Assembly: GCF_040958095.1 (NCBI RefSeq)
Contig: NC_091209.1
Coordinates: 13,195,424 to 13,259,423, forward strand
Direction of reading: 5' to 3'
DNA: 64,000 nucleotides
Source of the DNA: Procambarus clarkii
Taxonomy: Eukaryota; Arthropoda; Malacostraca; Decapoda; Cambaridae
Part shown: positions 34,893-62,421 of the stretch, in pieces
Layout: each line of letters starts with the position of its first letter
Position numbering within the stretch: position 1 is the stretch's first letter
Made by a program: the position numbers and the translations under genes
Notes under the pieces: model-generated
Database searches by the model: none
What the model was told of the DNA's origin: nothing
What the model saw: the letters and a program-made list of their open reading frames with translations, nothing else

Positions 34893-34924
34893 GTTAAACA
34901 TATCTGAAATTGTAACTAAGGTAT
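34893..34924. repeat. Left copy of the 32-bp direct repeat flanking the array
   Basis: The 32 bp from gttaaacatatctg to actaaggtat are identical to 62209-62240. Eight unique bases separate the copy from the first satellite base at 34933. Confidence 0.95.
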
Positions 34925-35359
34925 AATAACTAAATGTTATTTTGATTATCCATTTATTATTTAGCTCATTTTGATTATTATTACATTTTTTAAAACTCAT
35001 TTTCCTTAGTAATTTGTTGAGAAAACACGATGATAGGTTTGATATTTGAGGTGGCTGTATCTCAGTAAATATGGCTGTATAGGCGTTAATATTTAAAATT
35101 AGCAAAGAAAGCCTTTACAGAAAGGAAGGTAAATTGCTGTGGTAAACACAATGGTACCATTTTCAAAACGATTCTATGGCTGGTTTTGATTTTGAGTTTT
35201 GTGAAAAATGACGATTTCGACAGGGCTCGGATTCTTGGCAGGCGGCGGGCTGTATGTACCCCATCTTTGTCTTCGTCCGCTGGTCAAGTTTTTATTACTT
35301 GATTTAATCATTGTCTATCTTCTATATCTATAAAATACGGATGACTGTCTGTGTAAGGT

Positions 35360-35735
35360 AAAAGGTACGTAAGTACCATAGAGGTACGTAAGTACATAAG
35401 TACCAAACACATACCCATAAAGGTACCATACTCAATCCCATATAAGTGTCATACATATGCCCATATAAGAACAATACATATGCCCATTGAGGTACCATAC
35501 AAAAGCTCTTATAAGTAACATACATATGCCCAAAAAGGTACCATACTTATGCCCTTATAAGAACAATACATATGTTCTTATAAGTATCATACATATACCC
35601 TTATAACTACCATACATATGCCCTTATAAGTACCATAAATGCCCATATAAGTACCATTCATATGCCAATATAGGTACCATACAAATGCCTTTATAAGTAG
35701 CATACATATGCCCATATACGCACCATGCATAGTAG
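35360..35735. repeat. Internal subrepeat block of the satellite unit (first copy shown)
   Basis: About fifteen degenerate copies of a 22-25-bp motif, (t)atgcccttataagtaccat, follow one another; ggtacc, catatg and ttataag recur. The same block appears in every 831-bp unit, so the satellite itself grew from a smaller tandem repeat. Confidence 0.85.
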
Positions 35736-38700
35736 TCTCTAAATACATGAGGAATATTGATATAATGTTATTTTGATTATCCATTTATTATTTAGCTCAT
35801 TTTGACTATTATTACATTTTTTAAAACTCATTTTCCTTAGTAATTTGTTGAGAAAACACGATGATAGGTTTGATATTTGAGGTGGCTGTATCTCAGTAAA
35901 TATGGCTGTATAGGCGTTAATATTTAAAATTAGCAAAGAAAGCCTTTACAGAAAGAAAGGTAAATTGCTGTGGTAAACACAATGGTACCATTTTCAAAAC
36001 GATTCTATGGCTGGTTTTGATTTTGAGTTTTGTGAAAAATGACGATTTCGCCAGGGCTCGGATTCTTGGCAGGCGGCGGGCTGTATGTACCCCATCTTTG
36101 TCTTCGTCCGCTGGTCAAGTTTTTATTACTTGATTTAATCATTGTCTATCTTCTATATCTATAAAATACGGATGACTGTCTGTGTAAGGTAAAAGGTACG
36201 TAAGTACCATAGAGGTACGTAAGTACATAAGTACCAAACACATACCCATAAAGGTACCATACTCAATCCCATATAAGTGTCATACATATGCCCATATAAG
36301 AACAATACATATGCCCATTGAGGTACCATACAAAAGCTCTTATAAGTAACATACATATGCCCAAAAAGGTACCATACTTATGCCCTTATAAGAACAATAC
36401 ATATGTTCTTATAAGTATCATACATATACCCTTATAACTACCATACATATGCCCTTATAAGTACCATAAATGCCCATATAAGTACCATTCATATGCCAAT
36501 ATAGGTACCATACAAATGCCTTTATAAGTAGCATACATATGCCCATATACGCACCATGCATAGTAGTCTCTAAATACATGAGGAATATTGATATAATGTT
36601 ATTTTGATTATCCATTTATTATTTAGCTCATTTTGATTATTATTACATTTTTTAAAACTCATTTTCCTTAGTAATTTGTTGAGAAAACACGATGATAGGT
36701 TTGATATTTGAGGTGGCTGTATCTCAGTAAATATGGCTGTATAGGCGTTAATATTTAAAATTAGCAAAGAAAGCCTTTACAGAAAGAAAGGTAAATTGCT
36801 GTGGTAAACACAATGGTACCATTTTCAAAACGATTCTATGGCTGGTTTTGATTTTGAGTTTTGTGAAAAATGACGATTTCGCCAGGGCTCGGATTCTTGG
36901 CAGGCGGCGGGCTGTATGTACCCCATCTTTGTCTTCGTCCGCTGGTCAAGTTTTTATTACTTGATTTAATCATTGTCTATCTTCTATATCTATAAAATAC
37001 GGATGACTGTCTGTGTAAGGTAAAAGGTACGTAAGTACCATAGAGGTACGTAAGTACATAAGTACCAAACACATACCCATAAAGGTACCATACTCAATCC
37101 CATATAAGTGTCATACATATGCCCATATAAGAACAATACATATGCCCATTGAGGTACCATACAAAAGCTCTTATAAGTAACATACATATGCCCAAAAAGG
37201 TACCATACTTATGCCCTTATAAGAACAATACATATGTTCTTATAAGTATCATACATATACCCTTATAACTACCATACATATGCCCTTATAAGTACCATAA
37301 ATGCCCATATAAGTACCATTCATATGCCAATATAGGTACCATACAAATGCCTTTATAAGTAGCATACATATGCCCATATACGCACCATGCATAGTAGTCT
37401 CTAAATACATGAGGAATATTGATATAATGTTATTTTGATTATCCATTTATTATTTAGCTCATTTTGATTATTATTACATTTTTTAAAACTCATTTTCCTT
37501 AGTAATTTGTTGAGAAAACACGATGATAGGTTTGATATTTGAGGTGGCTGTATCTCAGTAAATATGGCTGTATAGGCGTTAATATTTAAAATTAGCAAAG
37601 AGAGCCTTTACAGAAAGAAAGGTAAATTGCTGTGGTAAACACAATGGTACCATTTTCAAAACGATTCTATGGCTGGTTTTGATTTTGAGTTTTGTGAAAA
37701 ATGACGATTTCGCCAGGGCTCGGATTCTTGGCAGGCGGCGGGCTGTATGTACCCCATCTTTGTCTTCGTCCGCTGGTCAAGTTTTTATTACTTGATTTAA
37801 TCATTGTCTATCTTCTATATCTATAAAATACGGATGACTGTCTGTGTAAGGTAAAAGGTACGTAAGTACCATAGAGGTACGTAAGTACATAAGTACCAAA
37901 CACATACCCATAAAGGTACCATACTCAATCCCATATAAGTGTCATACATATGCCCATATAAGAACAATACATATGCCCATTGAGGTACCATACAAAAGCT
38001 CTTATAAGTAACATACATATGCCCAAAAAGGTACCATACTTATGCCCTTATAAGAACAATACATATGTTCTTATAAGTATCATACATATACCCTTATAAC
38101 TACCATACATATGCCCTTATAAGTACCATAAATGCCCATATAAGTACCATTCATATGCCAATATAGGTACCATACAAATGCCTTTATAAGTAGCATACAT
38201 ATGCCCATATACGCACCATGCATAGTAGTCTCTAAATACATGAGGAATATTGATATAATGTTATTTTGATTATCCATTTATTATTTAGCTCATTTTGACT
38301 ATTATTACATTTTTTAAAACTCATTTTCCTTAGTAATTTGTTGAGAAAACACGATGATAGGTTTGATATTTGAGGTGGCTGTATCTCAGTAAATATGGCT
38401 GTATAGGCGTTAATATTTAAAATTAGCAAAGAAAGCCTTTACAGAAAGAAAGGTAAATTGCTGTGGTAAACACAATGGTACCATTTTCAAAACGATTCTA
38501 TGGCTGGTTTTGATTTTGAGTTTTGTGAAAAATGACGATTTCGCCAGGGCTCGGATTCTTGGCAGGCGGCGGGCTGTATGTACCCCATCTTTGTCTTCGT
38601 CCGCTGGTCAAGTTTTTATTACTTGATTTAATCATTGTCTATCTTCTATATCTATAAAATACGGATGACTGTCTGTGTAAGGTAAAAGGTACGTAAGTAC

Positions 38701-41700
38701 CATAGAGGTACGTAAGTACATAAGTACCAAACACATACCCATAAAGGTACCATACTCAATCCCATATAAGTGTCATACATATGCCCATATAAGAACAATA
38801 CATATGCCCATTGAGGTACCATACAAAAGCTCTTATAAGTAACATACATATGCCCAAAAAGGTACCATACTTATGCCCTTATAAGAACAATACATATGTT
38901 CTTATAAGTATCATACATATACCCTTATAACTACCATACATATGCCCTTATAAGTACCATAAATGCCCATATAAGTACCATTCATATGCCAATATAGGTA
39001 CCATACAAATGCCTTTATAAGTAGCATACATATGCCCATATACGCACCATGCATAGTAGTCTCTAAATACATGAGGAATATTGATATAATGTTATTTTGA
39101 TTATCCATTTATTATTTAGCTCATTTTGATTATTATTACATTTTTTAAAACTCATTTTCCTTAGTAATTTGTTGAGAAAACACGATGATAGGTTTGATAT
39201 TTGAGGTGGCTGTATCTCAGTAAATATGGCTGTATAGGCGTTAATATTTAAAATTAGCAAAGAAAGCCTTTACAGAAAGAAAGGTAAATTGCTGTGGTAA
39301 ACACAATGGTACCATTTTCAAAACGATTCTATGGCTGGTTTTGATTTTGAGTTTTGTGAAAAATGACGATTTCGCCAGGGCTCGGATTCTTGGCAGGCGG
39401 CGGGCTGTATGTACCCCATCTTTGTCTTCGTCCGCTGGTCAAGTTTTTATTACTTGATTTAATCATTGTCTATCTTCTATATCTATAAAATACGGATGAC
39501 TGTCTGTGTAAGGTAAAAGGTACGTAAGTACCATAGAGGTACGTAAGTACATAAGTACCAAACACATACCCATAAAGGTACCATACTCAATCCCATATAA
39601 GTGTCATACATATGCCCATATAAGAACAATACATATGCCCATTGAGGTACCATACAAAAGCTCTTATAAGTAACATACATATGCCCAAAAAGGTACCATA
39701 CTTATGCCCTTATAAGAACAATACATATGTTCTTATAAGTATCATACATATACCCTTATAACTACCATACATATGCCCTTATAAGTACCATAAATGCCCA
39801 TATAAGTACCATTCATATGCCAATATAGGTACCATACAAATGCCTTTATAAGTAGCATACATATGCCCATATACGCACCATGCATAGTAGTCTCTAAATA
39901 CATGAGGAATATTGATATAATGTTATTTTGATTATCCATTTATTATTTAGCTCATTTTGATTATTATTACATTTTTTAAAACTCATTTTCCTTAGTAATT
40001 TGTTGAGAAAACACGATGATAGGTTTGATATTTGAGGTGGCTGTATCTCAGTAAATATGGCTGTATAGGCGTTAATATTTAAAATTAGCAAAGAAAGCCT
40101 TTACAGAAAGAAAGGTAAATTGCTGTGGTAAACACAATGGTACCATTTTCAAAACGATTCTATGGCTGGTTTTGATTTTGAGTTTTGTGAAAAATGACGA
40201 TTTCGCCAGGGCTCGGATTCTTGGCAGGCGGCGGGCTGTATGTACCCCATCTTTGTCTTCGTCCGCTGGTCAAGTTTTTATTACTTGATTTAATCATTGT
40301 CTATCTTCTATATCTATAAAATACGGATGACTGTCTGTGTAAGGTAAAAGGTACGTAAGTACCATAGAGGTACGTAAGTACATAAGTACCAAACACATAC
40401 CCATAAAGGTACCATACTCAATCCCATATAAGTGTCATACATATGCCCATATAAGAACAATACATATGCCCATTGAGGTACCATACAAAAGCTCTTATAA
40501 GTAACATACATATGCCCAAAAAGGTACCATACTTATGCCCTTATAAGAACAATACATATGTTCTTATAAGTATCATACATATACCCTTATAACTACCATA
40601 CATATGCCCTTATAAGTACCATAAATGCCCATATAAGTACCATTCATATGCCAATATAGGTACCATACAAATGCCTTTATAAGTAGCATACATATGCCCA
40701 TATACGCACCATGCATAGTAGTCTCTAAATACATGAGGAATATTGATATAATGTTATTTTGATTATCCATTTATTATTTAGCTCATTTTGATTATTATTA
40801 CATTTTTTAAAACTCATTTTCCTTAGTAATTTGTTGAGAAAACACGATGATAGGTTTGATATTTGAGGTGGCTGTATCTCAGTAAATATGGCTGTATAGG
40901 CGTTAATATTTAAAATTAGCAAAGAAAGCCTTTACAGAAAGAAAGGTAAATTGCTGTGGTAAACACAATGGTACCATTTTCAAAACGATTCTATAGCTGG
41001 TTTTGATTTTGAGTTTTGTGAAAAGTGACGATTTCGCCAGGGCTCGGATTCTTGGCAGGCGGCGGGCTGTATGTACCCCATCTTTGTCTTCGTCCGCTGG
41101 TCAAGTTTTTATTACTTGATTTAATCATTGTCTATCTTCTATATCTATAAAATACGGATGACTGTCTGTGTAAGGTAAAAGGTACGTAAGTACCATAGAG
41201 GTACGTAAGTACATAAGTACCAAACACATACCCATAAAGGTACCATACTCAATCCCATATAAGTGTCATACATATGCCCATATAAGAACAATACATATGC
41301 CCATTGAGGTACCATACAAAAGCTCTTATAAGTAACATACATATGCCCAAAAAGGTACCATACTTATGCCCTTATAAGAACAATACATATGTTCTTATAA
41401 GTATCATACATATACCCTTATAACTACCATACATATGCCCTTATAAGTACCATAAATGCCCATATAAGTACCATTCATATGCCAATATAGGTACCATACA
41501 AATGCCTTTATAAGTAGCATACATATGCCCATATACGCACCATGCATAGTAGTCTCTAAATACATGAGGAATATTGATATAATGTTATTTTGATTATCCA
41601 TTTATTATTTAGCTCATTTTGATTATTATTACATTTTTTAAAACTCATTTTCCTTAGTAATTTGTTGAGAAAACACGATGATAGGTTTGATATTTGAGGT

Positions 41701-44700
41701 GGCTGTATCTCAGTAAATATGGCTGTATAGGCGTTAATATTTAAAATTAGCAAAGAAAGCCTTTACAGAAAGAAAGGTAAATTGCTGTGGTAAACACAAT
41801 GGTACCATTTTCAAAACGATTCTATGGCTGGTTTTGATTTTGAGTTTTGTGAAAAATGACGATTTCGCCAGGGCTCGGATTCTTGGCAGGCGGCGGGCTG
41901 TATGTACCCCATCTTTGTCTTCGTCCGCTGGTCAAGTTTTTATTACTTGATTTAATCATTGTCTATCTTCTATATCTATAAAATACGGATGACTGTCTGT
42001 GTAAGGTAAAAGGTACGTAAGTACCATAGAGGTACGTAAGTACATAAGTACCAAACACATACCCATAAAGGTACCATACTCAATCCCATATAAGTGTCAT
42101 ACATATGCCCATATAAGAACAATACATATGCCCATTGAGGTACCATACAAAAGCTCTTATAAGTAACATACATATGCCCAAAAAGGTACCATACTTATGC
42201 CCTTATAAGAACAATACATATGTTCTTATAAGTATCATACATATACCCTTATAACTACCATACATATGCCCTTATAAGTACCATAAATGCCCATATAAGT
42301 ACCATTCATATGCCAATATAGGTACCATACAAATGCCTTTATAAGTAGCATACATATGCCCATATACGCACTATGCATAGTAGTCTCTAAATACATGAGG
42401 AATATTGATATAATGTTATTTTGATTATCCATTTATTATTTAGCTCATTTTGATTATTATTACATTTTTTAAAACTCATTTTCCTTAGTAATTTGTTGAG
42501 AAAACACGATGATAGGTTTGATATTTGAGGTGGCTGTATCTCAGTAAATATGGCTGTATAGGCGTTAATATTTAAAATTAGCAAAGAAAGCCTTTACAGA
42601 AAGAAAGGTAAATTGCTGTGGTAAACACAATGGTACCATTTTCAAAACGATTCTATGGCTGGTTTTGATTTTGAGTTTTGTGAAAAATGACGATTTCGCC
42701 AGGGCTCGGATTCTTGGCAGGCGGCGGGCTGTATGTACCCCATCTTTGTCTTCGTCCGCTGGTCAAGTTTTTATTACTTGATTTAATCATTGTCTATCTT
42801 CTATATCTATAAAATACGGATGACTGTCTGTGTAAGGTAAAAGGTACGTAAGTACCATAGAGGTACGTAAGTACATAAGTACCAAACACATACCCATAAA
42901 GGTACCATACTCAATCCCATATAAGTGTCATACATATGCCCATATAAGAACAATACATATGCCCATTGAGGTACCATACAAAAGCTCTTATAAGTAACAT
43001 ACATATGCCCAAAAAGGTACCATACTTATGCCCTTATAAGAACAATACATATGTTCTTATAAGTATCATACATATACCCTTATAACTACCATACATATGC
43101 CCTTATAAGTACCATAAATGCCCATATAAGTACCATTCATATGCCAATATAGGTACCATACAAATGCCTTTATAAGTAGCATACATATGCCCATATACGC
43201 ACCATGCATAGTAGTCTCTAAATACATGAGGAATATTGATATAATGTTATTTTGATTATCCATTTATTATTTAGCTCATTTTGATTATTATTACATTTTT
43301 TAAAACTCATTTTCCTTAGTAATTTGTTGAGAAAACACGATGATAGGTTTGATATTTGAGGTGGCTGTATCTCAGTAAATATGGCTGTATAGGCGTTAAT
43401 ATTTAAAATTAGCAAAGAAAGCCTTTACAGAAAGAAAGGTAAATTGCTGTGGTAAACACAATGGTACCATTTTCAAAACGATTCTATGGCTGGTTTTGAT
43501 TTTGAGTTTTGTGAAAAATGACGATTTCGCCAGGGCTCGGATTCTTGGCAGGCGGCGGGCTGTATGTACCCCATCTTTGTCTTCGTCCGCTGGTCAAGTT
43601 TTTATTACTTGATTTAATCATTGTCTATCTTCTATATCTATAAAATACGGATGACTGTCTGTGTAAGGTAAAAGGTACGTAAGTACCATAGAGGTACGTA
43701 AGTACATAAGTACCAAACACATACCCATAAAGGTACCATACTCAATCCCATATAAGTGTCATACATATGCCCATATAAGAACAATACATATGCCCATTGA
43801 GGTACCATACAAAAGCTCTTATAAGTAACATACATATGCCCAAAAAGGTACCATACTTATGCCCTTATAAGAACAATACATATGTTCTTATAAGTATCAT
43901 ACATATACCCTTATAACTACCATACATATGCCCTTATAAGTACCATAAATGCCCATATAAGTACCATTCATATGCCAATATAGGTACCATACAAATGCCT
44001 TTATAAGTAGCATACATATGCCCATATACGCACCATGCATAGTAGTCTCTAAATACATGAGGAATATTGATATAATGTTATTTTGATTATCCATTTATTA
44101 TTTAGCTCATTTTGATTATTATTACATTTTTTAAAACTCATTTTCCTTAGTAATTTGTTGAGAAAACACGATGATAGGTTTGATATTTGAGGTGGCTGTA
44201 TCTCAGTAAATATGGCTGTATAGGCGTTAATATTTAAAATTAGCAAAGAAAGCCTTTACAGAAAGAAAGGTAAATTGCTGTGGTAAACACAATGGTACCA
44301 TTTTCAAAACGATTCTATGGCTGGTTTTGATTTTGAGTTTTGTGAAAAATGACGATTTCGCCAGGGCTCGGATTCTTGGCAGGCGGCGGGCTGTATGTAC
44401 CCCATCTTTGTCTTCGTCCGCTGGTCAAGTTTTTATTACTTGATTTAATCATTGTCTATCTTCTATATCTATAAAATACGGATGACTGTCTGTGTAAGGT
44501 AAAAGGTACGTAAGTACCATAGAGGTACGTAAGTACATAAGTACCAAACACATACCCATAAAGGTACCATACTCAATCCCATATAAGTGTCATACATATG
44601 CCCATATAAGAACAATACATATGCCCATTGAGGTACCATACAAAAGCTCTTATAAGTAACATACATATGCCCAAAAAGGTACCATACTTATGCCCTTATA

Positions 44701-47700
44701 AGAACAATACATATGTTCTTATAAGTATCATACATATACCCTTATAACTACCATACATATGCCCTTATAAGTACCATAAATGCCCATATAAGTACCATTC
44801 ATATGCCAATATAGGTACCATACAAATGCCTTTATAAGTAGCATACATATGCCCATATACGCACCATGCATAGTAGTCTCTAAATACATGAGGAATATTG
44901 ATATAATGTTATTTTGATTATCCATTTATTATTTAGCTCATTTTGATTATTATTACATTTTTTAAAACTCATTTTCCTTAGTAATTTGTTGAGAAAACAC
45001 GATGATAGGTTTGATATTTGAGGTGGCTGTATCTCAGTAAATATGGCTGTATAGGCGTTAATATTTAAAATTAGCAAAGAAAGCCTTTACAGAAAGAAAG
45101 GTAAATTGCTGTGGTAAACACAATGGTACCATTTTCAAAACGATTCTATGGCTGGTTTTGATTTTGAGTTTTGTGAAAAATGACGATTTCGCCAGGGCTC
45201 GGATTCTTGGCAGGCGGCGGGCTGTATGTACCCCATCTTTGTCTTCGTCCGCTGGTCAAGTTTTTATTACTTGATTTAATCATTGTCTATCTTCTATATC
45301 TATAAAATACGGATGACTGTCTGTGTAAGGTAAAAGGTACGTAAGTACCATAGAGGTACGTAAGTACATAAGTACCAAACACATACCCATAAAGGTACCA
45401 TACTCAATCCCATATAAGTGTCATACATATGCCCATATAAGAACAATACATATGCCCATTGAGGTACCATACAAAAGCTCTTATAAGTAACATACATATG
45501 CCCAAAAAGGTACCATACTTATGCCCTTATAAGAACAATACATATGTTCTTATAAGTATCATACATATACCCTTATAACTACCATACATATGCCCTTATA
45601 AGTACCATAAATGCCCATATAAGTACCATTCATATGCCAATATAGGTACCATACAAATGCCTTTATAAGTAGCATACATATGCCCATATACGCACCATGC
45701 ATAGTAGTCTCTAAATACATGAGGAATATTGATATAATGTTATTTTGATTATCCATTTATTATTTAGCTCATTTTGATTATTATTACATTTTTTAAAACT
45801 CATTTTCCTTAGTAATTTGTTGAGAAAACACGATGATAGGTTTGATATTTGAGGTGGCTGTATCTCAGTAAATATGGCTGTATAGGCGTTAATATTTAAA
45901 ATTAGCAAAGAAAGCCTTTACAGAAAGAAAGGTAAATTGCTGTGGTAAACACAATGGTACCATTTTCAAAACGATTCTATGGCTGGTTTTGATTTTGAGT
46001 TTTGTGAAAAATGACGATTTCGCCAGGGCTCGGATTCTTGGCAGGCGGCGGGCTGTATGTACCCCATCTTTGTCTTCGTCCGCTGGTCAAGTTTTTATTA
46101 CTTGATTTAATCATTGTCTATCTTCTATATCTATAAAATACGGATGACTGTCTGTGTAAGGTAAAAGGTACGTAAGTACCATAGAGGTACGTAAGTACAT
46201 AAGTACCAAACACATACCCATAAAGGTACCATACTCAATCCCATATAAGTGTCATACATATGCCCATATAAGAACAATACATATGCCCATTGAGGTACCA
46301 TACAAAAGCTCTTATAAGTAACATACATATGCCCAAAAAGGTACCATACTTATGCCCTTATAAGAACAATACATATGTTCTTATAAGTATCATACATATA
46401 CCCTTATAACTACCATACATATGCCCTTATAAGTACCATAAATGCCCATATAAGTACCATTCATATGCCAATATAGGTACCATACAAATGCCTTTATAAG
46501 TAGCATACATATGCCCATATACGCACCATGCATAGTAGTCTCTAAATACATGAGGAATATTGATATAATGTTATTTTGATTATCCATTTATTATTTAGCT
46601 CATTTTGATTATTATTACATTTTTTAAAACTCATTTTCCTTAGTAATTTGTTGAGAAAACACGATGATAGGTTTGATATTTGAGGTGGCTGTATCTCAGT
46701 AAATATGGCTGTATAGGCGTTAATATTTAAAATTAGCAAAGAAAGCCTTTACAGAAAGAAAGGTAAATTGCTGTGGTAAACACAATGGTACCATTTTCAA
46801 AACGATTCTATGGCTGGTTTGATTTTGAGTTTTGTGAAAAATGACGATTTCGCCAGGGCTCGGATTCTTGGCAGGCGGCGGGCTGTATGTACCCCATCTT
46901 TGTCTTCGTCCGCTGGTCAAGTTTTTATTACTTGATTTAATCATTGTCTATCTTCTATATCTATAAAATACGGATGACTGTCTGTGTAAGGTAAAAGGTA
47001 CGTAAGTACCATAGAGGTACGTAAGTACATAAGTACCAAACACATACCCATAAAGGTACCATACTCAATCCCATATAAGTGTCATACATATGCCCATATA
47101 AGAACAATACATATGCCCATTGAGGTACCATACAAAAGCTCTTATAAGTAACATACATATGCCCAAAAAGGTACCATACTTATGCCCTTATAAGAACAAT
47201 ACATATGTTCTTATAAGTATCATACATATACCCTTATAACTACCATACATATGCCCTTATAAGTACCATAAATGCCCATATAAGTACCATTCATATGCCA
47301 ATATAGGTACCATACAAATGCCTTTATAAGTAGCATACATATGCCCATATACGCACCATGCATAGTAGTCTCTAAATACATGAGGAATATTGATATAATG
47401 TTATTTTGATTATCCATTTATTATTTAGCTCATTTTGATTATTATTACATTTTTTAAAACTCATTTTCCTTAGTAATTTGTTGAGAAAACACGATGATAG
47501 GTTTGATATTTGAGGTGGCTGTATCTCAGTAAATATGGCTGTATAGGCGTTAATATTTAAAATTAGCAAAGAAAGCCTTTACAGAAAGAAAGGTAAATTG
47601 CTGTGGTAAACACAATGGTACCATTTTCAAAACGATTCTATGGCTGGTTTTGATTTTGAGTTTTGTGAAAAATGACGATTTCGCCAGGGCTCGGATTCTT

Positions 47701-47756
47701 GGCAGGCGGCGGGCTGTATGTACCCCATCTTTGTCTTCGTCCGCTGGTCAAGTTTT

Positions 47757-48256
47757 NNNNNNNNNNNNNNNNNNNNNNNNNNNNNNNNNNNNNNNNNNNN
47801 NNNNNNNNNNNNNNNNNNNNNNNNNNNNNNNNNNNNNNNNNNNNNNNNNNNNNNNNNNNNNNNNNNNNNNNNNNNNNNNNNNNNNNNNNNNNNNNNNNNN
47901 NNNNNNNNNNNNNNNNNNNNNNNNNNNNNNNNNNNNNNNNNNNNNNNNNNNNNNNNNNNNNNNNNNNNNNNNNNNNNNNNNNNNNNNNNNNNNNNNNNNN
48001 NNNNNNNNNNNNNNNNNNNNNNNNNNNNNNNNNNNNNNNNNNNNNNNNNNNNNNNNNNNNNNNNNNNNNNNNNNNNNNNNNNNNNNNNNNNNNNNNNNNN
48101 NNNNNNNNNNNNNNNNNNNNNNNNNNNNNNNNNNNNNNNNNNNNNNNNNNNNNNNNNNNNNNNNNNNNNNNNNNNNNNNNNNNNNNNNNNNNNNNNNNNN
48201 NNNNNNNNNNNNNNNNNNNNNNNNNNNNNNNNNNNNNNNNNNNNNNNNNNNNNNNN
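47757..48256. other. Assembly gap of exactly 500 N inside the satellite
   Basis: The unit is interrupted after caagtttt and resumes at atacttatgccc. In every complete unit these two points are 250 bp apart, so the real gap must be 250 bp or 250 plus a multiple of 831. The 500 N are a placeholder. Confidence 0.97.
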
Positions 48257-51200
48257 ATACTTATGCCCTTATAAGAACAATACATATGTTCTTATAAGTA
48301 TCATACATATACCCTTATAACTACCATACATATGCCCTTATAAGTACCATAAATGCCCATATAAGTACCATTCATATGCCAATATAGGTACCATACAAAT
48401 GCCTTTATAAGTAGCATACATATGCCCATATACGCACCATGCATAGTAGTCTCTAAATACATGAGGAATATTGATATAATGTTATTTTGATTATCCATTT
48501 ATTATTTAGCTCATTTTGATTATTATTACATTTTTTAAAACTCATTTTCTTTAGTAATTTGTTGAGAAAACACGATGATAGGTTTGATATTTGAGGTGGC
48601 TGTATCTCAGTAAATATGGCTGTATAGGCGTTAATATTTAAAATTAGCAAAGAAAGCCTTTACAGAAAGAAAGGTAAATTGCTGTGGTAAACACAATGGT
48701 ACCATTTTCAAAACGATTCTATGGCTGGTTTTGATTTTGAGTTTTGTGAAAAATGACGATTTCGCCAGGGCTCGGATTCTTGGCAGGCGGCGGGCTGTAT
48801 GTACCCCATCTTTGTCTTCGTCCGCTGGTCAAGTTTTTATTACTTGATTTAATCATTGTCTATCTTCTATATCTATAAAATACGGATGACTGTCTGTGTA
48901 AGGTAAAAGGTACGTAAGTACCATAGAGGTACGTAAGTACATAAGTACCAAACACATACCCATAAAGGTACCATACTCAATCCCATATAAGTGTCATACA
49001 TATGCCCATATAAGAACAATACATATGCCCATTGAGGTACCATACAAAAGCTCTTATAAGTAACATACATATGCCCAAAAAGGTACCATACTTATGCCCT
49101 TATAAGAACAATACATATGTTCTTATAAGTATCATACATATACCCTTATAACTACCATACATATGCCCTTATAAGTACCATAAATGCCCATATAAGTACC
49201 ATTCATATGCCAATATAGGTACCATACAAATGCCTTTATAAGTAGCATACATATGCCCATATACGCACCATGCATAGTAGTCTCTAAATACATGAGGAAT
49301 ATTGATATAATGTTATTTTGATTATCCATTTATTATTTAGCTCATTTTGATTATTATTACATTTTTTAAAACTCATTTTCCTTAGTAATTTGTTGAGAAA
49401 ACACGATGATAGGTTTGATATTTGAGGTGGCTGTATCTCAGTAAATATGGCTGTATAGGCGTTAATATTTAAAATTAGCAAAGAAAGCCTTTACAGAAAG
49501 AAAGGTAAATTGCTGTGGTAAACACAATGGTACCATTTTCAAAACGATTCTATGGCTGGTTTTGATTTTGAGTTTTGTGAAAAATGACGATTTCGCCAGG
49601 GCTGGGATTCTTGGCAGGCGGCGGGCTGTATGTACCCCATCTTTGTCTTCGTCCGCTGGTCAAGTTTTTATTACTTGATTTAATCATTGTCTATCTTCTA
49701 TATCTATAAAATACGGATGACTGTCTGTGTAAGGTAAAAGGTACGTAAGTACCATAGAGGTACGTAAGTACATAAGTACCAAACACATACCCATAAAGGT
49801 ACCATACTCAATCCCATATAAGTGTCATACATATGCCCATATAAGAACAATACATATGCCCATTGAGGTACCATACAAAAGCTCTTATAAGTAACATACA
49901 TATGCCCAAAAAGGTACCATACTTATGCCCTTATAAGAACAATACATATGTTCTTATAAGTATCATACATATACCCTTATAACTACCATACATATGCCCT
50001 TATAAGTACCATAAATGCCCATATAAGTACCATTCATATGCCAATATAGGTACCATACAAATGCCTTTATAAGTAGCATACATATGCCCATATACGCACC
50101 ATGCATAGTAGTCTCTAAATACATGAGGAATATTGATATAATGTTATTTTGATTATCCATTTATTATTTAGCTCATTTTGATTATTATTACATTTTTTAA
50201 AACTCATTTTCCTTAGTAATTTGTTGAGAAAACACGAAGATAGGTTTGATATTTGAGGTGGCTGTATCTCAGTAAATATGGCTGTATAGGCGTTAATATT
50301 TAAAATTAGCAAAGAAAGCCTTTACAGAAAGAAAGGTAAATTGCTGTGGTAAACACAATGGTACCATTTTCAAAACGATTCTATGGCTGGTTTTGATTTT
50401 GAGTTTTGTGAAAAATGACGATTTCGCCAGGGCTCGGATTCTTGGCAGGCGGCGGGCTGTATGTACCCCATCTTTGTCTTCGTCCGCTGGTCAAGTTTTT
50501 ATTACTTGATTTAATCATTGTCTATCTTCTATATCTATAAAATACGGATGACTGTCTGTGTAAGGTAAAAGGTACGTAAGTACCATAGAGGTACGTAAGT
50601 ACATAAGTACCAAACACATACCCATAAAGGTACCATACTCAATCCCATATAAGTGTCATACATATGCCCATATAAGAACAATACATATGCCCATTGAGGT
50701 ACCATACAAAAGCTCTTATAAGTAACATACATATGCCCAAAAAGGTACCATACTTATGCCCTTATAAGAACAATACATATGTTCTTATAAGTATCATACA
50801 TATACCCTTATAACTACCATACATATGCCCTTATAAGTACCATAAATGCCCATATAAGTACCATTCATATGCCAATATAGGTACCATACAAATGCCTTTA
50901 TAAGTAGCATACATATGCCCATATACGCACCATGCATAGTAGTCTCTAAATACATGAGGAATATTGATATAATGTTATTTTGATTATCCATTTATTATTT
51001 AGCTCATTTTGATTATTATTACATTTTTAAAACTCATTTTCCTTAGTAATTTGTTGAGAAAACACGATGATAGGTTTGATATTTGAGGTGGCTGTATCTC
51101 AGTAAATATGGCTGTATAGGCGTTAATATTTAAAATTAGCAAAGAAAGCCTTTACAGAAAGAAAGGTAAATTGCTGTGGTAAACACAATGGTACCATTTT

Positions 51201-54200
51201 CAAAACGATTCTATGGCTGGTTTTGATTTTGAGTTTTGTGAAAAATGACGATTTCGCCAGGGCTCGGATTCTTGGCAGGCGGCGGGCTGTATGTACCCCA
51301 TCTTTGTCTTCGTCCGCTGGTCAAGTTTTTATTACTTGATTTAATCATTGTCTATCTTCTATATCTATAAAATACGGATGACTGTCTGTGTAAGGTAAAA
51401 GGTACGTAAGTACCATAGAGGTACGTAAGTACATAAGTACCAAACACATACCCATAAAGGTACCATACTCAATCCCATATAAGTGTCATACATATGCCCA
51501 TATAAGAACAATACATATGCCCATTGAGGTACCATACAAAAGCTCTTATAAGTAACATACATATGCCCAAAAAGGTACCATACTTATGCCCTTATAAGAA
51601 CAATACATATGTTCTTATAAGTATCATACATATACCCTTATAACTACCATACATATGCCCTTATAAGTACCATAAATGCCCATATAAGTACCATTCATAT
51701 GCCAATATAGGTACCATACAAATGCCTTTATAAGTAGCATACATATGCCCATATACGCACCATGCATAGTAGTCTCTAAATACATGAGGAATATTGATAT
51801 AATGTTATTTTGATTATCCATTTATTATTTAGCTCATTTTGATTATTATTACATTTTTTAAAACTCATTTTCCTTAGTAATTTGTTGAGAAAACACGAAG
51901 ATAGGTTTGATATTTGAGGTGGCTGTATCTCAGTAAATATGGCTGTATAGGCGTTAATATTTAAAATTAGCAAAGAAAGCCTTTACAGAAAGAAAGGTAA
52001 ATTGCTGTGGTAAACACAATGGTACCATTTTCAAAACGATTCTATGGCTGGTTTTGATTTTGAGTTTTGTGAAAAATGACGATTTCGCCAGGGCTCGGAT
52101 TCTTGGCAGGCGGCGGGCTGTATGTACCCCATCTTTGTCTTCGTCCGCTGGTCAAGTTTTTATTACTTGATTTAATCATTGTCTATCTTCTATATCTATA
52201 AAATACGGATGACTGTCTGTGTAAGGTAAAAGGTACGTAAGTACCATAGAGGTACGTAAGTACATAAGTACCAAACACATACCCATAAAGGTACCATACT
52301 CAATCCCATATAAGTGTCATACATATGCCCATATAAGAACAATACATATGCCCATTGAGGTACCATACAAAAGCTCTTATAAGTAACATACATATGCCCA
52401 AAAAGGTACCATACTTATGCCCTTATAAGAACAATACATATGTTCTTATAAGTATCATACATATACCCTTATAACTACCATACATATGCCCTTATAAGTA
52501 CCATAAATGCCCATATAAGTACCATTCATATGCCAATATAGGTACCATACAAATGCCTTTATAAGTAGCATACATATGCCCATATACGCACCATGCATAG
52601 TAGTCTCTAAATACATGAGGAATATTGATATAATGTTATTTTGATTATCCATTTATTATTTAGCTCATTTTGATTATTATTACATTTTTTAAAACTCATT
52701 TTCCTTAGTAATTTGTTGAGAAAACACGATGATAGGTTTGATATTTGAGGTGGCTGTATCTCAGTAAATATGGCTGTATAGGCGTTAATATTTAAAATTA
52801 GCAAAGAAAGCCTTTACAGAAAGAAAGGTAAATTGCTGTGGTAAACACAATGGTACCATTTTCAAAACGATTCTATGGCTGGTTTTGATTTTGAGTTTTG
52901 TGAAAAATGACGATTTCGCCAGGGCTCGGATTCTTGGCAGGCGGCGGGCTGTATGTACCCCATCTTTGTCTTCGTCCGCTGGTCAAGTTTTTATTACTTG
53001 ATTTAATCATTGTCTATCTTCTATATCTATAAAATACGGATGACTGTCTGTGTAAGGTAAAAGGTACGTAAGTACCATAGAGGTACGTAAGTACATAAGT
53101 ACCAAACACATACCCATAAAGGTACCATACTCAATCCCATATAAGTGTCATACATATGCCCATATAAGAACAATACATATGCCCATTGAGGTACCATACA
53201 AAAGCTCTTATAAGTAACATACATATGCCCAAAAAGGTACCATACTTATGCCCTTATAAGAACAATACATATGTTCTTATAAGTATCATACATATACCCT
53301 TATAACTACCATACATATGCCCTTATAAGTACCATAAATGCCCATATAAGTACCATTCATATGCCAATATAGGTACCATACAAATGCCTTTATAAGTAGC
53401 ATACATATGCCCATATACGCACCATGCATAGTAGTCTCTAAATACATGAGGAATATTGATATAATGTTATTTTGATTATCCATTTATTATTTAGCTCATT
53501 TTGATTATTATTACATTTTTTAAAACTCATTTTCCTTAGTAATTTGTTGAGAAAACACGATGATAGGTTTGATATTTGAGGTGGCTGTATCTCAGTAAAT
53601 ATGGCTGTATAGGCGTTAATATTTAAAATTAGCAAAGAAAGCCTTTACAGAAAGAAAGGTAAATTGCTGTGGTAAACACAATGGTACCATTTTCAAAACG
53701 ATTCTATGGCTGGTTTTGATTTTGAGTTTTGTGAAAAATGACGATTTCGCCAGGGCTCGGATTCTTGGCAGGCGGCGGGCTGTATGTACCCCATCTTTGT
53801 CTTCGTCCGCTGGTCAAGTTTTTATTACTTGATTTAATCATTGTCTATCTTCTATATCTATAAAATACGGATGACTGTCTGTGTAAGGTAAAAGGTACGT
53901 AAGTACCATAGAGGTACGTAAGTACATAAGTACCAAACACATACCCATAAAGGTACCATACTCAATCCCATATAAGTGTCATACATATGCCCATATAAGA
54001 ACAATACATATGCCCATTGAGGTACCATACAAAAGCTCTTATAAGTAACATACATATGCCCAAAAAGGTACCATACTTATGCCCTTATAAGAACAATACA
54101 TATGTTCTTATAAGTATCATACATATACCCTTATAACTACCATACATATGCCCTTATAAGTACCATAAATGCCCATATAAGTACCATTCATATGCCAATA

Positions 54201-57200
54201 TAGGTACCATACAAATGCCTTTATAAGTAGCATACATATGCCCATATACGCACCATGCATAGTAGTCTCTAAATACATGAGGAATATTGATATAATGTTA
54301 TTTTGATTATCCATTTATTATTTAGCTCATTTTGATTATTATTACATTTTTTAAAACTCATTTTCCTTAGTAATTTGTTGAGAAAACACGATGATAGGTT
54401 TGATATTTGAGGTGGCTGTATCTCAGTAAATATGGCTGTATAGGCGTTAATATTTAAAATTAGCAAAGAAAGCCTTTACAGAAAGAAAGGTAAATTGCTG
54501 TGGTAAACACAATGGTACCATTTTCAAAACGATTCTATGGCTGGTTTTGATTTTGAGTTTTGTGAAAAATGACGATTTCGCCAGGGCTCGGATTCTTGGC
54601 AGGCGGCGGGCTGTATGTACCCCATCTTTGTCTTCGTCCGCTGGTCAAGTTTTTATTACTTGATTTAATCATTGTCTATCTTCTATATCTATAAAATACG
54701 GATGACTGTCTGTGTAAGGTAAAAGGTACGTAAGTACCATAGAGGTACGTAAGTACATAAGTACCAAACACATACCCATAAAGGTACCATACTCAATCCC
54801 ATATAAGTGTCATACATATGCCCATATAAGAACAATACATATGCCCATTGAGGTACCATACAAAAGCTCTTATAAGTAACATACATATGCCCAAAAAGGT
54901 ACCATACTTATGCCCTTATAAGAACAATACATATGTTCTTATAAGTATCATACATATACCCTTATAACTACCATACATATGCCCTTATAAGTACCATAAA
55001 TGCCCATATAAGTACCATTCATATGCCAATATAGGTACCATACAAATGCCTTTATAAGTAGCATACATATGCCCATATACGCACCATGCATAGTAGTCTC
55101 TAAATACATGAGGAATATTGATATAATGTTATTTTGATTATCCATTTATTATTTAGCTCATTTTGATTATTATTACATTTTTTAAAACTCATTTTCCTTA
55201 GTAATTTGTTGAGAAAACACGATGATAGGTTTGATATTTGAGGTGGCTGTATCTCAGTAAATATGGCTGTATAGGCGTTAATATTTAAAATTAGCAAAGA
55301 AAGCCTTTACAGAAAGAAAGGTAAATTGCTGTGGTAAACACAATGGTACCATTTTCAAAACGATTCTATGGCTGGTTTTGATTTTGAGTTTTGTGAAAAA
55401 TGACGATTTCGCCAGGGCTCGGATTCTTGGCAGGCGGCGGGCTGTATGTACCCCATCTTTGTCTTCGTCCGCTGGTCAAGTTTTTATTACTTGATTTAAT
55501 CATTGTCTATCTTCTATATCTATAAAATACGGATGACTGTCTGTGTAAGGTAAAAGGTACGTAAGTACCATAGAGGTACGTAAGTACATAAGTACCAAAC
55601 ACATACCCATAAAGGTACCATACTCAATCCCATATAAGTGTCATACATATGCCCATATAAGAACAATACATATGCCCATTGAGGTACCATACAAAAGCTC
55701 TTATAAGTAACATACATATGCCCAAAAAGGTACCATACTTATGCCCTTATAAGAACAATACATATGTTCTTATAAGTATCATACATATACCCTTATAACT
55801 ACCATACATATGCCCTTATAAGTACCATAAATGCCCATATAAGTACCATTCATATGCCAATATAGGTACCATACAAATGCCTTTATAAGTAGCATACATA
55901 TGCCCATATACGCACCATGCATAGTAGTCTCTAAATACATGAGGAATATTGATATAATGTTATTTTGATTATCCATTTATTATTTAGCTCATTTTGATTA
56001 TTATTACATTTTTTAAAACTCATTTTCCTTAGTAATTTGTTGAGAAAACACGATGATAGGTTTGATATTTGAGGTGGCTGTATCTCAGTAAATATGGCTG
56101 TATAGGCGTTAATATTTAAAATTAGCAAAGAAAGCCTTTACAGAAAGAAAGGTAAATTGCTGTGGTAAACACAATGGTACCATTTTCAAAACGATTCTAT
56201 GGCTGGTTTTGATTTTGAGTTTTGTGAAAAATGACGATTTCGCCAGGGCTCGGATTCTTGGCAGGCGGCGGGCTGTATGTACCCCATCTTTGTCTTCGTC
56301 CGCTGGTCAAGTTTTTATTACTTGATTTAATCATTGTCTATCTTCTATATCTATAAAATACGGATGACTGTCTGTGTAAGGTAAAAGGTACGTAAGTACC
56401 ATAGAGGTACGTAAGTACATAAGTACCAAACACATACCCATAAAGGTACCATACTCAATCCCATATAAGTGTCATACATATGCCCATATAAGAACAATAC
56501 ATATGCCCATTGAGGTACCATACAAAAGCTCTTATAAGTAACATACATATGCCCAAAAAGGTACCATACTTATGCCCTTATAAGAACAATACATATGTTC
56601 TTATAAGTATCATACATATACCCTTATAACTACCATACATATGCCCTTATAAGTACCATAAATGCCCATATAAGTACCATTCATATGCCAATATAGGTAC
56701 CATACAAATGCCTTTATAAGTAGCATACATATGCCCATATACGCACCATGCATAGTAGTCTCTAAATACATGAGGAATATTGATATAATGTTATTTTGAT
56801 TATCCATTTATTATTTAGCTCATTTTGATTATTATTACATTTTTTAAAACTCATTTTCCTTAGTAATTTGTTGAGAAAACACGATGATAGGTTTGATATT
56901 TGAGGTGGCTGTATCTCAGTAAATATGGCTGTATAGGCGTTAATATTTAAAATTAGCAAAGAAAGCCTTTACAGAAAGAAAGGTAAATTGCTGTGGTAAA
57001 CACAATGGTACCATTTTCAAAACGATTCTATGGCTGGTTTTGATTTTGAGTTTTGTGAAAAATGACGATTTCGCCAGGGCTCGGATTCTTGGCAGGCGGC
57101 GGGCTGTATGTACCCCATCTTTGTCTTCGTCCGCTGGTCAAGTTTTTATTACTTGATTTAATCATTGTCTATCTTCTATATCTATAAAATACGGATGACT

Positions 57201-60200
57201 GTCTGTGTAAGGTAAAAGGTACGTAAGTACCATAGAGGTACGTAAGTACATAAGTACCAAACACATACCCATAAAGGTACCATACTCAATCCCATATAAG
57301 TGTCATACATATGCCCATATAAGAACAATACATATGCCCATTGAGGTACCATACAAAAGCTCTTATAAGTAACATACATATGCCCAAAAAGGTACCATAC
57401 TTATGCCCTTATAAGAACAATACATATGTTCTTATAAGTATCATACATATACCCTTATAACTACCATACATATGCCCTTATAAGTACCATAAATGCCCAT
57501 ATAAGTACCATTCATATGCCAATATAGGTACCATACAAATGCCTTTATAAGTAGCATACATATGCCCATATACGCACCATGCATAGTAGTCTCTAAATAC
57601 ATGAGGAATATTGATATAATGTTATTTTGATTATCCATTTATTATTTAGCTCATTTTGATTATTATTACATTTTTTAAAACTCATTTTCCTTAGTAATTT
57701 GTTGAGAAAACACGATGATAGGTTTGATATTTGAGGTGGCTGTATCTCAGTAAATATGGCTGTATAGGCGTTAATATTTAAAATTAGCAAAGAAAGCCTT
57801 TACAGAAAGAAAGGTAAATTGCTGTGGTAAACACAATGGTACCATTTTCAAAACGATTCTATGGCTGGTTTTGATTTTGAGTTTTGTGAAAAATGACGAT
57901 TTCGCCAGGGCTCGGATTCTTGGCAGGCGGCGGGCTGTATGTACCCCATCTTTGTCTTCGTCCGCTGGTCAAGTTTTTATTACTTGATTTAATCATTGTC
58001 TATCTTCTATATCTATAAAATACGGATGACTGTCTGTGTAAGGTAAAAGGTACGTAAGTACCATAGAGGTACGTAAGTACATAAGTACCAAACACATACC
58101 CATAAAGGTACCATACTCAATCCCATATAAGTGTCATACATATGCCCATATAAGAACAATACATATGCCCATTGAGGTACCATACAAAAGCTCTTATAAG
58201 TAACATACATATGCCCAAAAAGGTACCATACTTATGCCCTTATAAGAACAATACATATGTTCTTATAAGTATCATACATATACCCTTATAACTACCATAC
58301 ATATGCCCTTATAAGTACCATAAATGCCCATATAAGTACCATTCATATGCCAATATAGGTACCATACAAATGCCTTTATAAGTAGCATACATATGCCCAT
58401 ATACGCACCATGCATAGTAGTCTCTAAATACATGAGGAATATTGATATAATGTTATTTTGATTATCCATTTATTATTTAGCTCATTTTGATTATTATTAC
58501 ATTTTTTAAAACTCATTTTCCTTAGTAATTTGTTGAGAAAACACGATGATAGGTTTGATATTTGAGGTGGCTGTATCTCAGTAAATATGGCTGTATAGGC
58601 GTTAATATTTAAAATTAGCAAAGAAAGCCTTTACAGAAAGAAAGGTAAATTGCTGTGGTAAACACAATGGTACCATTTTCAAAACGATTCTATGGCTGGT
58701 TTTGATTTTGAGTTTTGTGAAAAATGACGATTTCGCCAGGGCTCGGATTCTTGGCAGGCGGCGGGCTGTATGTACCCCATCTTTGTCTTCGTCCGCTGGT
58801 CAAGTTTTTATTACTTGATTTAATCATTGTCTATCTTCTATATCTATAAAATACGGATGACTGTCTGTGTAAGGTAAAAGGTACGTAAGTACCATAGAGG
58901 TACGTAAGTACATAAGTACCAAACACATACCCATAAAGGTACCATACTCAATCCCATATAAGTGTCATACATATGCCCATATAAGAACAATACATATGCC
59001 CATTGAGGTACCATACAAAAGCTCTTATAAGTAACATACATATGCCCAAAAAGGTACCATACTTATGCCCTTATAAGAACAATACATATGTTCTTATAAG
59101 TATCATACATATACCCTTATAACTACCATACATATGCCCTTATAAGTACCATAAATGCCCATATAAGTACCATTCATATGCCAATATAGGTACCATACAA
59201 ATGCCTTTATAAGTAGCATACATATGCCCATATACGCACCATGCATAGTAGTCTCTAAATACATGAGGAATATTGATATAATGTTATTTTGATTATCCAT
59301 TTATTATTTAGCTCATTTTGATTATTATTACATTTTTTAAAACTCATTTTCCTTAGTAATTTGTTGAGAAAACACGATGATAGGTTTGATATTTGAGGTG
59401 GCTGTATCTCAGTAAATATGGCTGTATAGGCGTTAATATTTAAAATTAGCAAAGAAAGCCTTTACAGAAAGAAAGGTAAATTGCTGTGGTAAACACAATG
59501 GTACCATTTTCAAAACGATTCTATGGCTGGTTTTGATTTTGAGTTTTGTGAAAAATGACGATTTCGCCAGGGCTCGGATTCTTGGCAGGCGGCGGGCTGT
59601 ATGTACCCCATCTTTGTCTTCGTCCGCTGGTCAAGTTTTTATTACTTGATTTAATCATTGTCTATCTTCTATATCTATAAAATACGGATGACTGTCTGTG
59701 TAAGGTAAAAGGTACGTAAGTACCATAGAGGTACGTAAGTACATAAGTACCAAACACATACCCATAAAGGTACCATACTCAATCCCATATAAGTGTCATA
59801 CATATGCCCATATAAGAACAATACATATGCCCATTGAGGTACCATACAAAAGCTCTTATAAGTAACATACATATGCCCAAAAAGGTACCATACTTATGCC
59901 CTTATAAGAACAATACATATGTTCTTATAAGTATCATACATATACCCTTATAACTACCATACATATGCCCTTATAAGTACCATAAATGCCCATATAAGTA
60001 CCATTCATATGCCAATATAGGTACCATACAAATGCCTTTATAAGTAGCATACATATGCCCATATACGCACCATGCATAGTAGTCTCTAAATACATGAGGA
60101 ATATTGATATAATGTTATTTTGATTATCCATTTATTATTTAGCTCATTTTGATTATTATTACATTTTTTAAAACTCATTTTCCTTAGTAATTTGTTGAGA

Positions 60201-62130
60201 AAACACGATGATAGGTTTGATATTTGAGGTGGCTGTATCTCAGTAAATATGGCTGTATAGGCGTTAATATTTAAAATTAGCAAAGAAAGCCTTTACAGAA
60301 AGAAAGGTAAATTGCTGTGGTAAACACAATGGTACCATTTTCAAAACGATTCTATGGCTGGTTTTGATTTTGAGTTTTGTGAAAAATGACGATTTCGCCA
60401 GGGCTCGGATTCTTGGCAGGCGGCGGGCTGTATGTACCCCATCTTTGTCTTCGTCCGCTGGTCAAGTTTTTATTACTTGATTTAATCATTGTCTATCTTC
60501 TATATCTATAAAATACGGATGACTGTCTGTGTAAGGTAAAAGGTACGTAAGTACCATAGAGGTACGTAAGTACATAAGTACCAAACACATACCCATAAAG
60601 GTACCATACTCAATCCCATATAAGTGTCATACATATGCCCATATAAGAACAATACATATGCCCATTGAGGTACCATACAAAAGCTCTTATAAGTAACATA
60701 CATATGCCCAAAAAGGTACCATACTTATGCCCTTATAAGAACAATACATATGTTCTTATAAGTATCATACATATACCCTTATAACTACCATACATATGCC
60801 CTTATAAGTACCATAAATGCCCATATAAGTACCATTCATATGCCAATATAGGTACCATACAAATGCCTTTATAAGTAGCATACATATGCCCATATACGCA
60901 CCATGCATAGTAGTCTCTAAATACATGAGGAATATTGATATAATGTTATTTTGATTATCCATTTATTATTTAGCTCATTTTGATTATTATTACATTTTTT
61001 AAAACTCATTTTCCTTAGTAATTTGTTGAGAAAACACGATGATAGGTTTGATATTTGAGGTGGCTGTATCTCAGTAAATATGGCTGTATAGGCGTTAATA
61101 TTTAAAATTAGCAAAGAAAGCCTTTACAGAAAGAAAGGTAAATTGCTGTGGTAAACACAATGGTACCATTTTCAAAACGATTCTATGGCTGGTTTTGATT
61201 TTGAGTTTTGTGAAAAATGACGATTTCGCCAGGGCTCGGATTCTTGGCAGGCGGCGGGCTGTATGTACCCCATCTTTGTCTTCGTCCGCTGGTCAAGTTT
61301 TTATTACTTGATTTAATCATTGTCTATCTTCTATATCTATAAAATACGGATGACTGTCTGTGTAAGGTAAAAGGTACGTAAGTACCATAGAGGTACGTAA
61401 GTACATAAGTACCAAACACATACCCATAAAGGTACCATACTCAATCCCATATAAGTGTCATACATATGCCCATATAAGAACAATACATATGCCCATTGAG
61501 GTACCATACAAAAGCTCTTATAAGTAACATACATATGCCCAAAAAGGTACCATACTTATGCCCTTATAAGAACAATACATATGTTCTTATAAGTATCATA
61601 CATATACCCTTATAACTACCATACATATGCCCTTATAAGTACCATAAATGCCCATATAAGTACCATTCATATGCCAATATAGGTACCATACAAATGCCTT
61701 TATAAGTAGCATACATATGCCCATATACGCACCATGCATAGTAGTCTCTAAATACATGAGGAATATTGATATAATGTTATTTTGATTATCCATTTATTAT
61801 TTAGCTCATTTTGATTATTATTACATTTTTTAAAACTCATTTTCCTTAGTAATTTGTTGAGAAAACACGATGATAGGTTTGATATTTGAGGTGGCTGTAT
61901 CTCAGTAAATATGGCTGTATAGGCGTTAATATTTAAAATTAGCAAAGAAAGCCTTTACAGAAAGAAAGGTAAATTGCTGTGGTAAACACAATGGTACCAT
62001 TTTCAAAACGATTCTATGGCTGGTTTTGATTTTGAGTTTTGTGAAAAATGACGATTTCGCCAGGGCTCGGATTCTTGGCAGGCGGCGGGCTGTATGTACC
62101 CCATCTTTGTCTTCGTCCGCTGGTCAAGTT

Positions 62131-62136
62131 TTTATT
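62131..62136 (-). promoter_or_regulatory. Candidate poly(A) signal for the SAM-domain gene, inside the satellite
   Basis: The minus strand reads AATAAA about 115 nt after the stop codon at 62251. It is the first such motif downstream and lies in the last satellite unit. Whether it is used is not known. Confidence 0.35.
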
Positions 62137-62208
62137 ACTTGATTTAATCATTGTCTATCTTCTATATCTATAAAATACGGATGACTGTCTGTGTAAGGTA
62201 AAAGGTAC

Positions 62209-62240
62209 GTTAAACATATCTGAAATTGTAACTAAGGTAT
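62209..62240. repeat. Right copy of the 32-bp direct repeat flanking the array
   Basis: Identical to 34893-34924. It overlaps the last satellite bases by two and ends 10 bp from the stop codon of the SAM-domain exon. Confidence 0.95.
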
Positions 62241-62250
62241 TTAGTTACCT

Positions 62251-62421
62251 TTAGGGTACAATTGCACTCATTTCAATTTCCTTCATTTCCTGGATATCTG
62301 CTTTGAGGCGTTGTTTGAGGATCTCCCGCCAAATGGCTTCAACATGTTCAGGATGCTTGATACCCATCCTCATTAGAGTCCCTTCACTCATCCGCACTAG
62401 GGCCTTCCCCGTTATGTCATG
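62251..62421 (-). CDS. ave: Last exon of an aveugle/SAMD10/SAMD12-type SAM-domain protein
   Basis: The acceptor GGTCCCACAG starts 56 codons that end at TAA (62253-62251). The peptide HDITGKALVRMSEGTLMRMG, IKHPEHVEAIWREILKQRLK, then ADIQEMKEIEMSAIVP is the second half of a SAM domain. It includes the HDITG.AL turn and the REAIWREI.KQRLK.DI.E block that mark Drosophila Aveugle and vertebrate SAMD10/SAMD12. Aveugle links CNK and KSR in Ras/MAPK signalling and has little beyond its SAM domain, so a short terminal exon fits. Upstream exons were not found in the remaining 1.6 kb and probably lie beyond it. The exon entry is in phase 0. The family call is from memory of conserved residues, without a search. 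Confidence 0.78.
   Translation of the reverse strand, partial: HDITGKALVRMSEGTLMRMGIKHPEHVEAIWREILKQRLKADIQEMKEIEMSAIVP

Follow-up and report, generated by a model that had tools for sequence, protein, structure and literature searches.

The satellite array and the exon beside it

The window, the stretch of 64,000 nucleotides of the Procambarus clarkii genome analysed here, holds a long satellite array next to the terminal coding exon of an orthologue of aveugle, which we take to be a MAPK-pathway adaptor gene. Its features are the following.

7010-9137, + strand: RVT_1 (reverse transcriptase) domain divided between two frames that overlap
23786-23856, - strand: tRNA-Thr (CGT) gene or tRNA-derived repeat, the sole RNA family match at gathering level in the window
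25613-27472, - strand: long open frame (619 aa between stops) encoding the DDE_1 and HTH_Tnp_Tc5 domains of a transposase
34893-34924, + strand: left copy of a 32-bp direct duplication (putative target-site duplication), an exact match to the right copy
34924-34932, + strand: 8-9 nt of filler separating the array from the left copy of the duplication
34933-62210, + strand: satellite array of 831-bp units, starting at unit phase 1 and ending at phase 438
35369-35763, + strand: 23-bp-repeat half of a unit (example); copies about 74% alike within the unit, whole units 99.9% alike
47757-48256, no strand: assembly gap of 500 N within the array; the interrupted unit has 581 of its 831 bp present
62209-62240, + strand: right copy of the 32-bp direct duplication, its first 2 bases compatible with the array end
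62421-62251, - strand: terminal coding exon of the aveugle orthologue (second half of the SAM domain), with its acceptor at 62421 and its TAA at 62253-62251

The transposase frame is presumably of the Tigger/pogo type and the RVT_1 region of the LINE type. A near-perfect long palindrome, which could be break-prone, occupies 33100-33839, 1.1 kb to the left of the array (arms of 170, 115 and 65 nt, 98-100% complementary, with a 26-nt centre), and a second palindrome (85%) lies at 32003-32260.

The open frame at 62251-62472 (- strand) matches the SAM domain of Drosophila aveugle. A phmmer comparison with PDB 3bs5 gave an E value of 4.1e-16 over chain residues 38-102 of 106, Pfam SAM_2 matched the exon above its cut-off, and the splice acceptor at 62421 reads CCCACAG/CATGAC; together with the TAA, these results support the terminal coding exon of the original prediction as real. 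The aveugle-type SAM domain ends the protein, which identifies the gene as an aveugle orthologue, and a simple motif look through the rest of the window found no upstream aveugle exons. In the original prediction the satellite ended some 40 bp beyond the stop of this exon; we measured 40-41 nt from the TAA to the array edge, the final base of the array (62210) being compatible with the flank too.

The array itself, announced as 27 kb long, was recovered as a very homogeneous series of 831-bp units, its length being corrected to 26.8 kb of satellite sequence and a run of 500 N; this figure counts assembled satellite only and is a lower bound owing to the gap, which was absent from the earlier description. 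In each unit a unique half of about 437 bp is joined to a half made of degenerate 23-bp repeats, about 394 bp long. The array contains 33 unit starts spaced 831 bp apart, except for two steps of 830 bp and one of 1081 bp, the latter across the 500-N gap. Complete units number 31 of the 33 and fall into 11 distinct sequences with 12 variable columns; their pairwise differences average 0.89 (0.11%), although consensus polishing could mask some variation. Over the gene-side 10.3 kb the periodicity is perfect, with no variants (9479 bp of self-match at lag 831). At the edges, the last partial unit shows no difference and the first shows two, which makes it, with one other unit, the most divergent of the 31 (two differences each). 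Some variants are common to non-adjacent units, namely u02/u05 and u19/u21. Since the 23-bp copies have diverged while the units are near-identical, the unit is an old composite that was copied recently. Long head-to-tail arrays of such near-identical units occur at several loci, as expected of a satellite DNA family.

Searches for a known relative of the unit gave little. Outside the array, the window matched the unit over stretches of 19-22 bp and no longer; exact unit pieces (29 and 24 bases) had no match in viral and prokaryotic collections; and no CENP-B-like box was found. For two unit ORFs no family scored above cut-off, a single weak DUF808 row (E 0.21) being returned, and the six Rfam rows for 34800-37500 were all sub-threshold miRNA families far under their gathering scores. 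A hammerhead retrozyme was rejected, as a scan of 34800-37500 against Rfam gave no ribozyme with an E value of 5 or below, and no CTGANGA core was found.

Junctions and integrity of the array

Both flanks of the array carry the 32-bp duplication, which the original prediction had missed. Its 30-bp core occurs at two places in the 4.03-Gb genome, both of them here (up to 2 mismatches allowed; reversed control, 0), and none of 200 shuffles matched the 32-bp duplication. Judged from the sequence, we read it as a target-site duplication and thus as a sign of insertion. An empty third copy of the target site was not found in the genome; the assembly therefore shows no allele without the insertion. 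At the left junction, templating of the filler from local sequence was not significant (0.13 and 0.19; the best match, of 8 nt, was equalled by 13% of shuffles).

The 500-N gap interrupts the array, leaving 12.8 and 14.0 kb of sequenced satellite on its two sides, and N runs also lie within or border other arrays of the family. Scaffolding might therefore have fused two satellite-ended contigs from different places. We consider such an artefact extremely improbable: the flanks have in common a 32-bp duplication whose core was found nowhere else in the genome, which is unexpected of unrelated contigs, and each junction is embedded in continuous sequence. The duplication would thereby link both flanks across the gap. 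It likewise makes unlikely a misassembly at 62209, the fault by which the original prediction might have fallen. No variant is common to units left and right of the gap, so that the halves probably do not represent the same units assembled twice.

Sister arrays and their edges

A 32-base piece of the unit, searched with up to 3 mismatches, occurs 1393 times in the genome (707 + 686; control, 0). Genome searches returned 27 matches elsewhere in one case and 40 in another; among the matches listed, the satellite is present on at least 12 contigs, and C60, the scaffold to which the window belongs, carries at least three arrays. The original prediction named heterochromatin as the usual seat of homogeneous satellites; the arrays whose edges were examined are located inside contigs of 30-45 Mb. 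Unit spacing varies slightly from array to array, from about 823 bp in C35 and 831 bp in the window to 834-835 bp in C55. At C41:17394936-17419778, exact matches to one unit variant are irregularly spaced (about 0.9, 1.9-2.1 and 2.9-4.0 kb, partly alternating 0.9/2.05), perhaps a higher-order repeat.

We compared 93 units of 800-860 bp without N, of which 31 came from the window, 1 from C73a, 9 from C73b, 6 from C70, 29 from C60b (C60:17.107-17.138 Mb) and 17 from C68. The majority unit of the window is that of C60b, on the same scaffold; it is one base apart from that of C68, with no fixed difference, and shows four fixed differences from each of C73b and C70, two arrays that are near-identical internally (all nine complete units of C73b are identical). 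C60b units differ from one another by 3.82 on average and from window units by 2.58, with no fixed difference from the window, the diversity of C60b and C68 being taken from part of each array. Since C60b varies more internally than against the window, it could, on this comparison, be an older donor of the window array. Eleven of the 12 window variants are absent from the 61 units of C60b, C68, C73b and C70, the exception being a one-base T deletion; the array thus resembles copies of one monomer that mutated afterwards.

Both edges were read in seven arrays, and two of these have a flanking duplication, of 32 bp in the window and of 19 bp in C73b (C73:25460857-25469286); C73a and C60:15.37 (border gaps), C38 (left edge), C41, C42 (two places), C48, C53 and C55 stand outside this count. 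C73b reads as duplication, filler of 6-7 nt, array and duplication, so that its filler sits at the same end of the array as that of the window. Reverse-complemented, this filler matches a portion of the 19-bp duplication exactly; 0.9% of shuffled fillers occur in the duplication on either strand. C70, C60b, C68, C32 and C35 have no common edge stretch of 12 bp or more, and so the duplication, missing in five of the seven arrays, is no rule for the family. The edges of C60b give an 11-base match that lies within the array's own repeat motif, and 3.5% of shuffles reach it. The combination of target duplication, filler or microhomology and arbitrary insert ends that marks a staggered break was found at the window and C73b only.

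Two gapped loci were also inspected. C73a, which borders a 5352-N gap, is inverted and lies about 130 kb from C73b (C73:25.326-25.469 Mb), and the right flank is common to both; either the assembly may present a single insertion in two copies, or the locus may truly have been duplicated. In the ungapped piece left of this gap the 19-bp duplication was not found, the left array edge lying inside the gap. Similarly, the ungapped left piece of C60:15.37 has no 10-mer in common with the right flank, and its left array edge is inside a gap.

The unit phases at the edges bear on whether the family is a mobile element with defined ends, either framed by direct terminal repeats (A-B-A) or Helentron-like with central tandem repeats. 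The window array opens on the unique half and stops at the onset of the 23-bp repeats, as such an element might, and long target duplications are seen at two loci. However, other arrays end at different phases: starts fall at 1, about 470-490, about 500, 693, 213, 343 and 764, and ends at 438, about 577-587, 766-776, 540, 557, 551, 612 and 428, phases inside the 23-bp repeats being uncertain by multiples of 23. This scatter leaves no fixed termini and therefore no fixed-end element. The unit ORFs without a family and the absence of a ribozyme family match also speak against this explanation, as do the oyster HINE elements, which lack target duplications in the available text of their description (PMC7492417). 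We therefore regard a defined-end element as very unlikely. Right-hand ends of five of the eight arrays (C73b, C60b, C68, C32 and C35) fall within 72 bp of unit phase, while left ends are scattered (simulation, 0.012); this clustering was noticed post hoc and is excluded from the evidence.

Two specific candidates were rejected. LTR/TRIM-type elements have constant terminal repeats and a target duplication of 4-6 bp; here the duplications are 32 and 19 bp and the ends are not constant. A Helentron or HINE is contradicted by the 32-bp (window) and 19-bp (C73b) duplications and by the non-constant ends, five other arrays having no duplication. HINE elements resemble the window family in their tandem repeats dispersed genome-wide, and differ from it, in the portion of the report at hand, by fixed flanking modules, short central arrays and the lack of target duplication (PMC7492417).

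Proposed insertion of the array and the aveugle 3' end

The reading to which we give a slightly better than even chance is that satellite DNA was inserted recently into the 3' flank of aveugle, where a staggered break had occurred, and probably came as a ready-made multimer. The break would have opened about 40 bp downstream of the stop codon, and end joining would have inserted a satellite segment, in all likelihood a preformed multimer built from a single monomer type. Fill-in of the staggered ends would have duplicated 30-32 bp of target, one junction gaining 8-9 nt of filler and the other using 1-2 nt of microhomology. Such a multimer might have been produced by a rolling circle or an extrachromosomal circle, or might have broken off one of the sister arrays of this scaffold. 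We infer the multimeric state at insertion, as well as the circle intermediate and the donor; arrival as a multimer is favoured because the units are uniform, the edges undecayed and the sister arrays long. Against this reading, the two differences in the left edge unit point weakly to ordinary edge decay, five of the seven arrays lack a duplication, and the window filler is not significantly templated.

The main rival is the insertion of a short satellite piece, of one to a few units, with target duplication, whose copy number later grew at the site through unequal exchange or replication slippage. It accounts for the target duplication equally well, as in-situ expansion of a smaller insertion gives identical flanks; the private variants equally fit growth from one unit, and the variants shared by u02/u05 and u19/u21 point to some exchange after insertion. 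The edges, however, carry no strongly decayed units, the gene-side 10.3 kb are free of variants, and a long donor-like array already exists on the same scaffold. Amplification in place thus appears to us possible and rather less probable than insertion as a multimer. A broader proposal, that the family moves as multi-kb blocks by a repeatable joining route, with target duplications of 19-32 bp and hairpin-templated filler, and so rewrote the aveugle 3' end, we hold to be doubtful.

Insertion of a satellite block would have moved the former post-stop sequence, including its AATAAA, about 27 kb away in the assembly. With the flanks rejoined, this AATAAA lies 183 nt past the stop. In the present allele, neither AATAAA nor ATTAAA occurs between stop and array edge, and the AATAAA that the original prediction had put about 115 nt after the stop was located at 115 nt, with another at 453 nt, both in the first satellite unit. 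With the former 3' sequence displaced, the transcript would therefore end before the array, end within the first satellite units or run through. The original prediction put the array in the 3' UTR; the UTR may in fact close ahead of the array, within it or past it. That the satellite now acts as the 3' end of aveugle, as a source of poly(A) sites or a control on expression, would be a consequence of the insertion compatible with the other readings. The two AATAAA motifs and the interval without one fit this idea, whereas motif counts are at chance level (3 in the occupied allele against 2.44 expected, reached by 45% of shuffles; 4 in the rejoined flanks against 2.47, not above chance) and the downstream context at +115 is U-poor (10% U), that at +453 being better (36% U). 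The predicted polyadenylation in the satellite thus keeps its AATAAA and is permitted by the sequence, with the context and the motif count against it. Such effects of the satellite on aveugle mRNA are at this stage our inference, and we rate a satellite-supplied 3' end as tentative and somewhat unlikely.

The Drosophila 1.688 satellite spreads by circular DNA, and its arrays are generally short, unlike that of the window. In the source text available, this euchromatic satellite resembles the window family in that its tandem arrays are scattered through regions containing genes. Satellite repeats dispersed close to genes are already known from Tribolium castaneum, where the euchromatic TCAST repeats share with the window this nearness to genes and where spread by rolling circles and circular DNA was proposed; the accessible parts of these reports describe repeats that are mostly solitary, form tetramers at most and very rarely overlap exons (PMC3411249, PMC5844308). 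The window differs in that its assembled satellite amounts to at least 26.8 kb, lies some 40 bp from a stop codon and has a target duplication of 32 bp. Work on bivalve satellite junctions discusses insertion and recombination of satellites into new surroundings; in its available sections, target duplications flank sequences that have entered satellite monomers, or serve to define MITEs, rather than bounding satellite arrays in single-copy DNA (PMC5139131). Crayfish satellitomes contain macrosatellites with family-mean units of about 200-620 bp beside more numerous minisatellites, and the excerpted text, likened to our family by description and not by sequence, names no 831-bp family or gene-adjacent insertion (PMC13130569). 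A long satellite array with a preserved flanking target duplication was not found in the literature searched, as far as the texts were available.

The routes by which satellite arrays come to occupy new sites have long been in question, and array edges are usually uninformative. Here, two young arrays retain both junctions, with target duplication, filler and uniform units, so that insertion of a block or circle becomes testable at base level. The duplicated target on both sides suggests that satellite DNA is able to land beside a gene as a discrete insertion. The copy in the window splits the stop codon of a conserved gene from its former 3' sequence, and would thus offer a natural test of how a satellite 3' end is tolerated.
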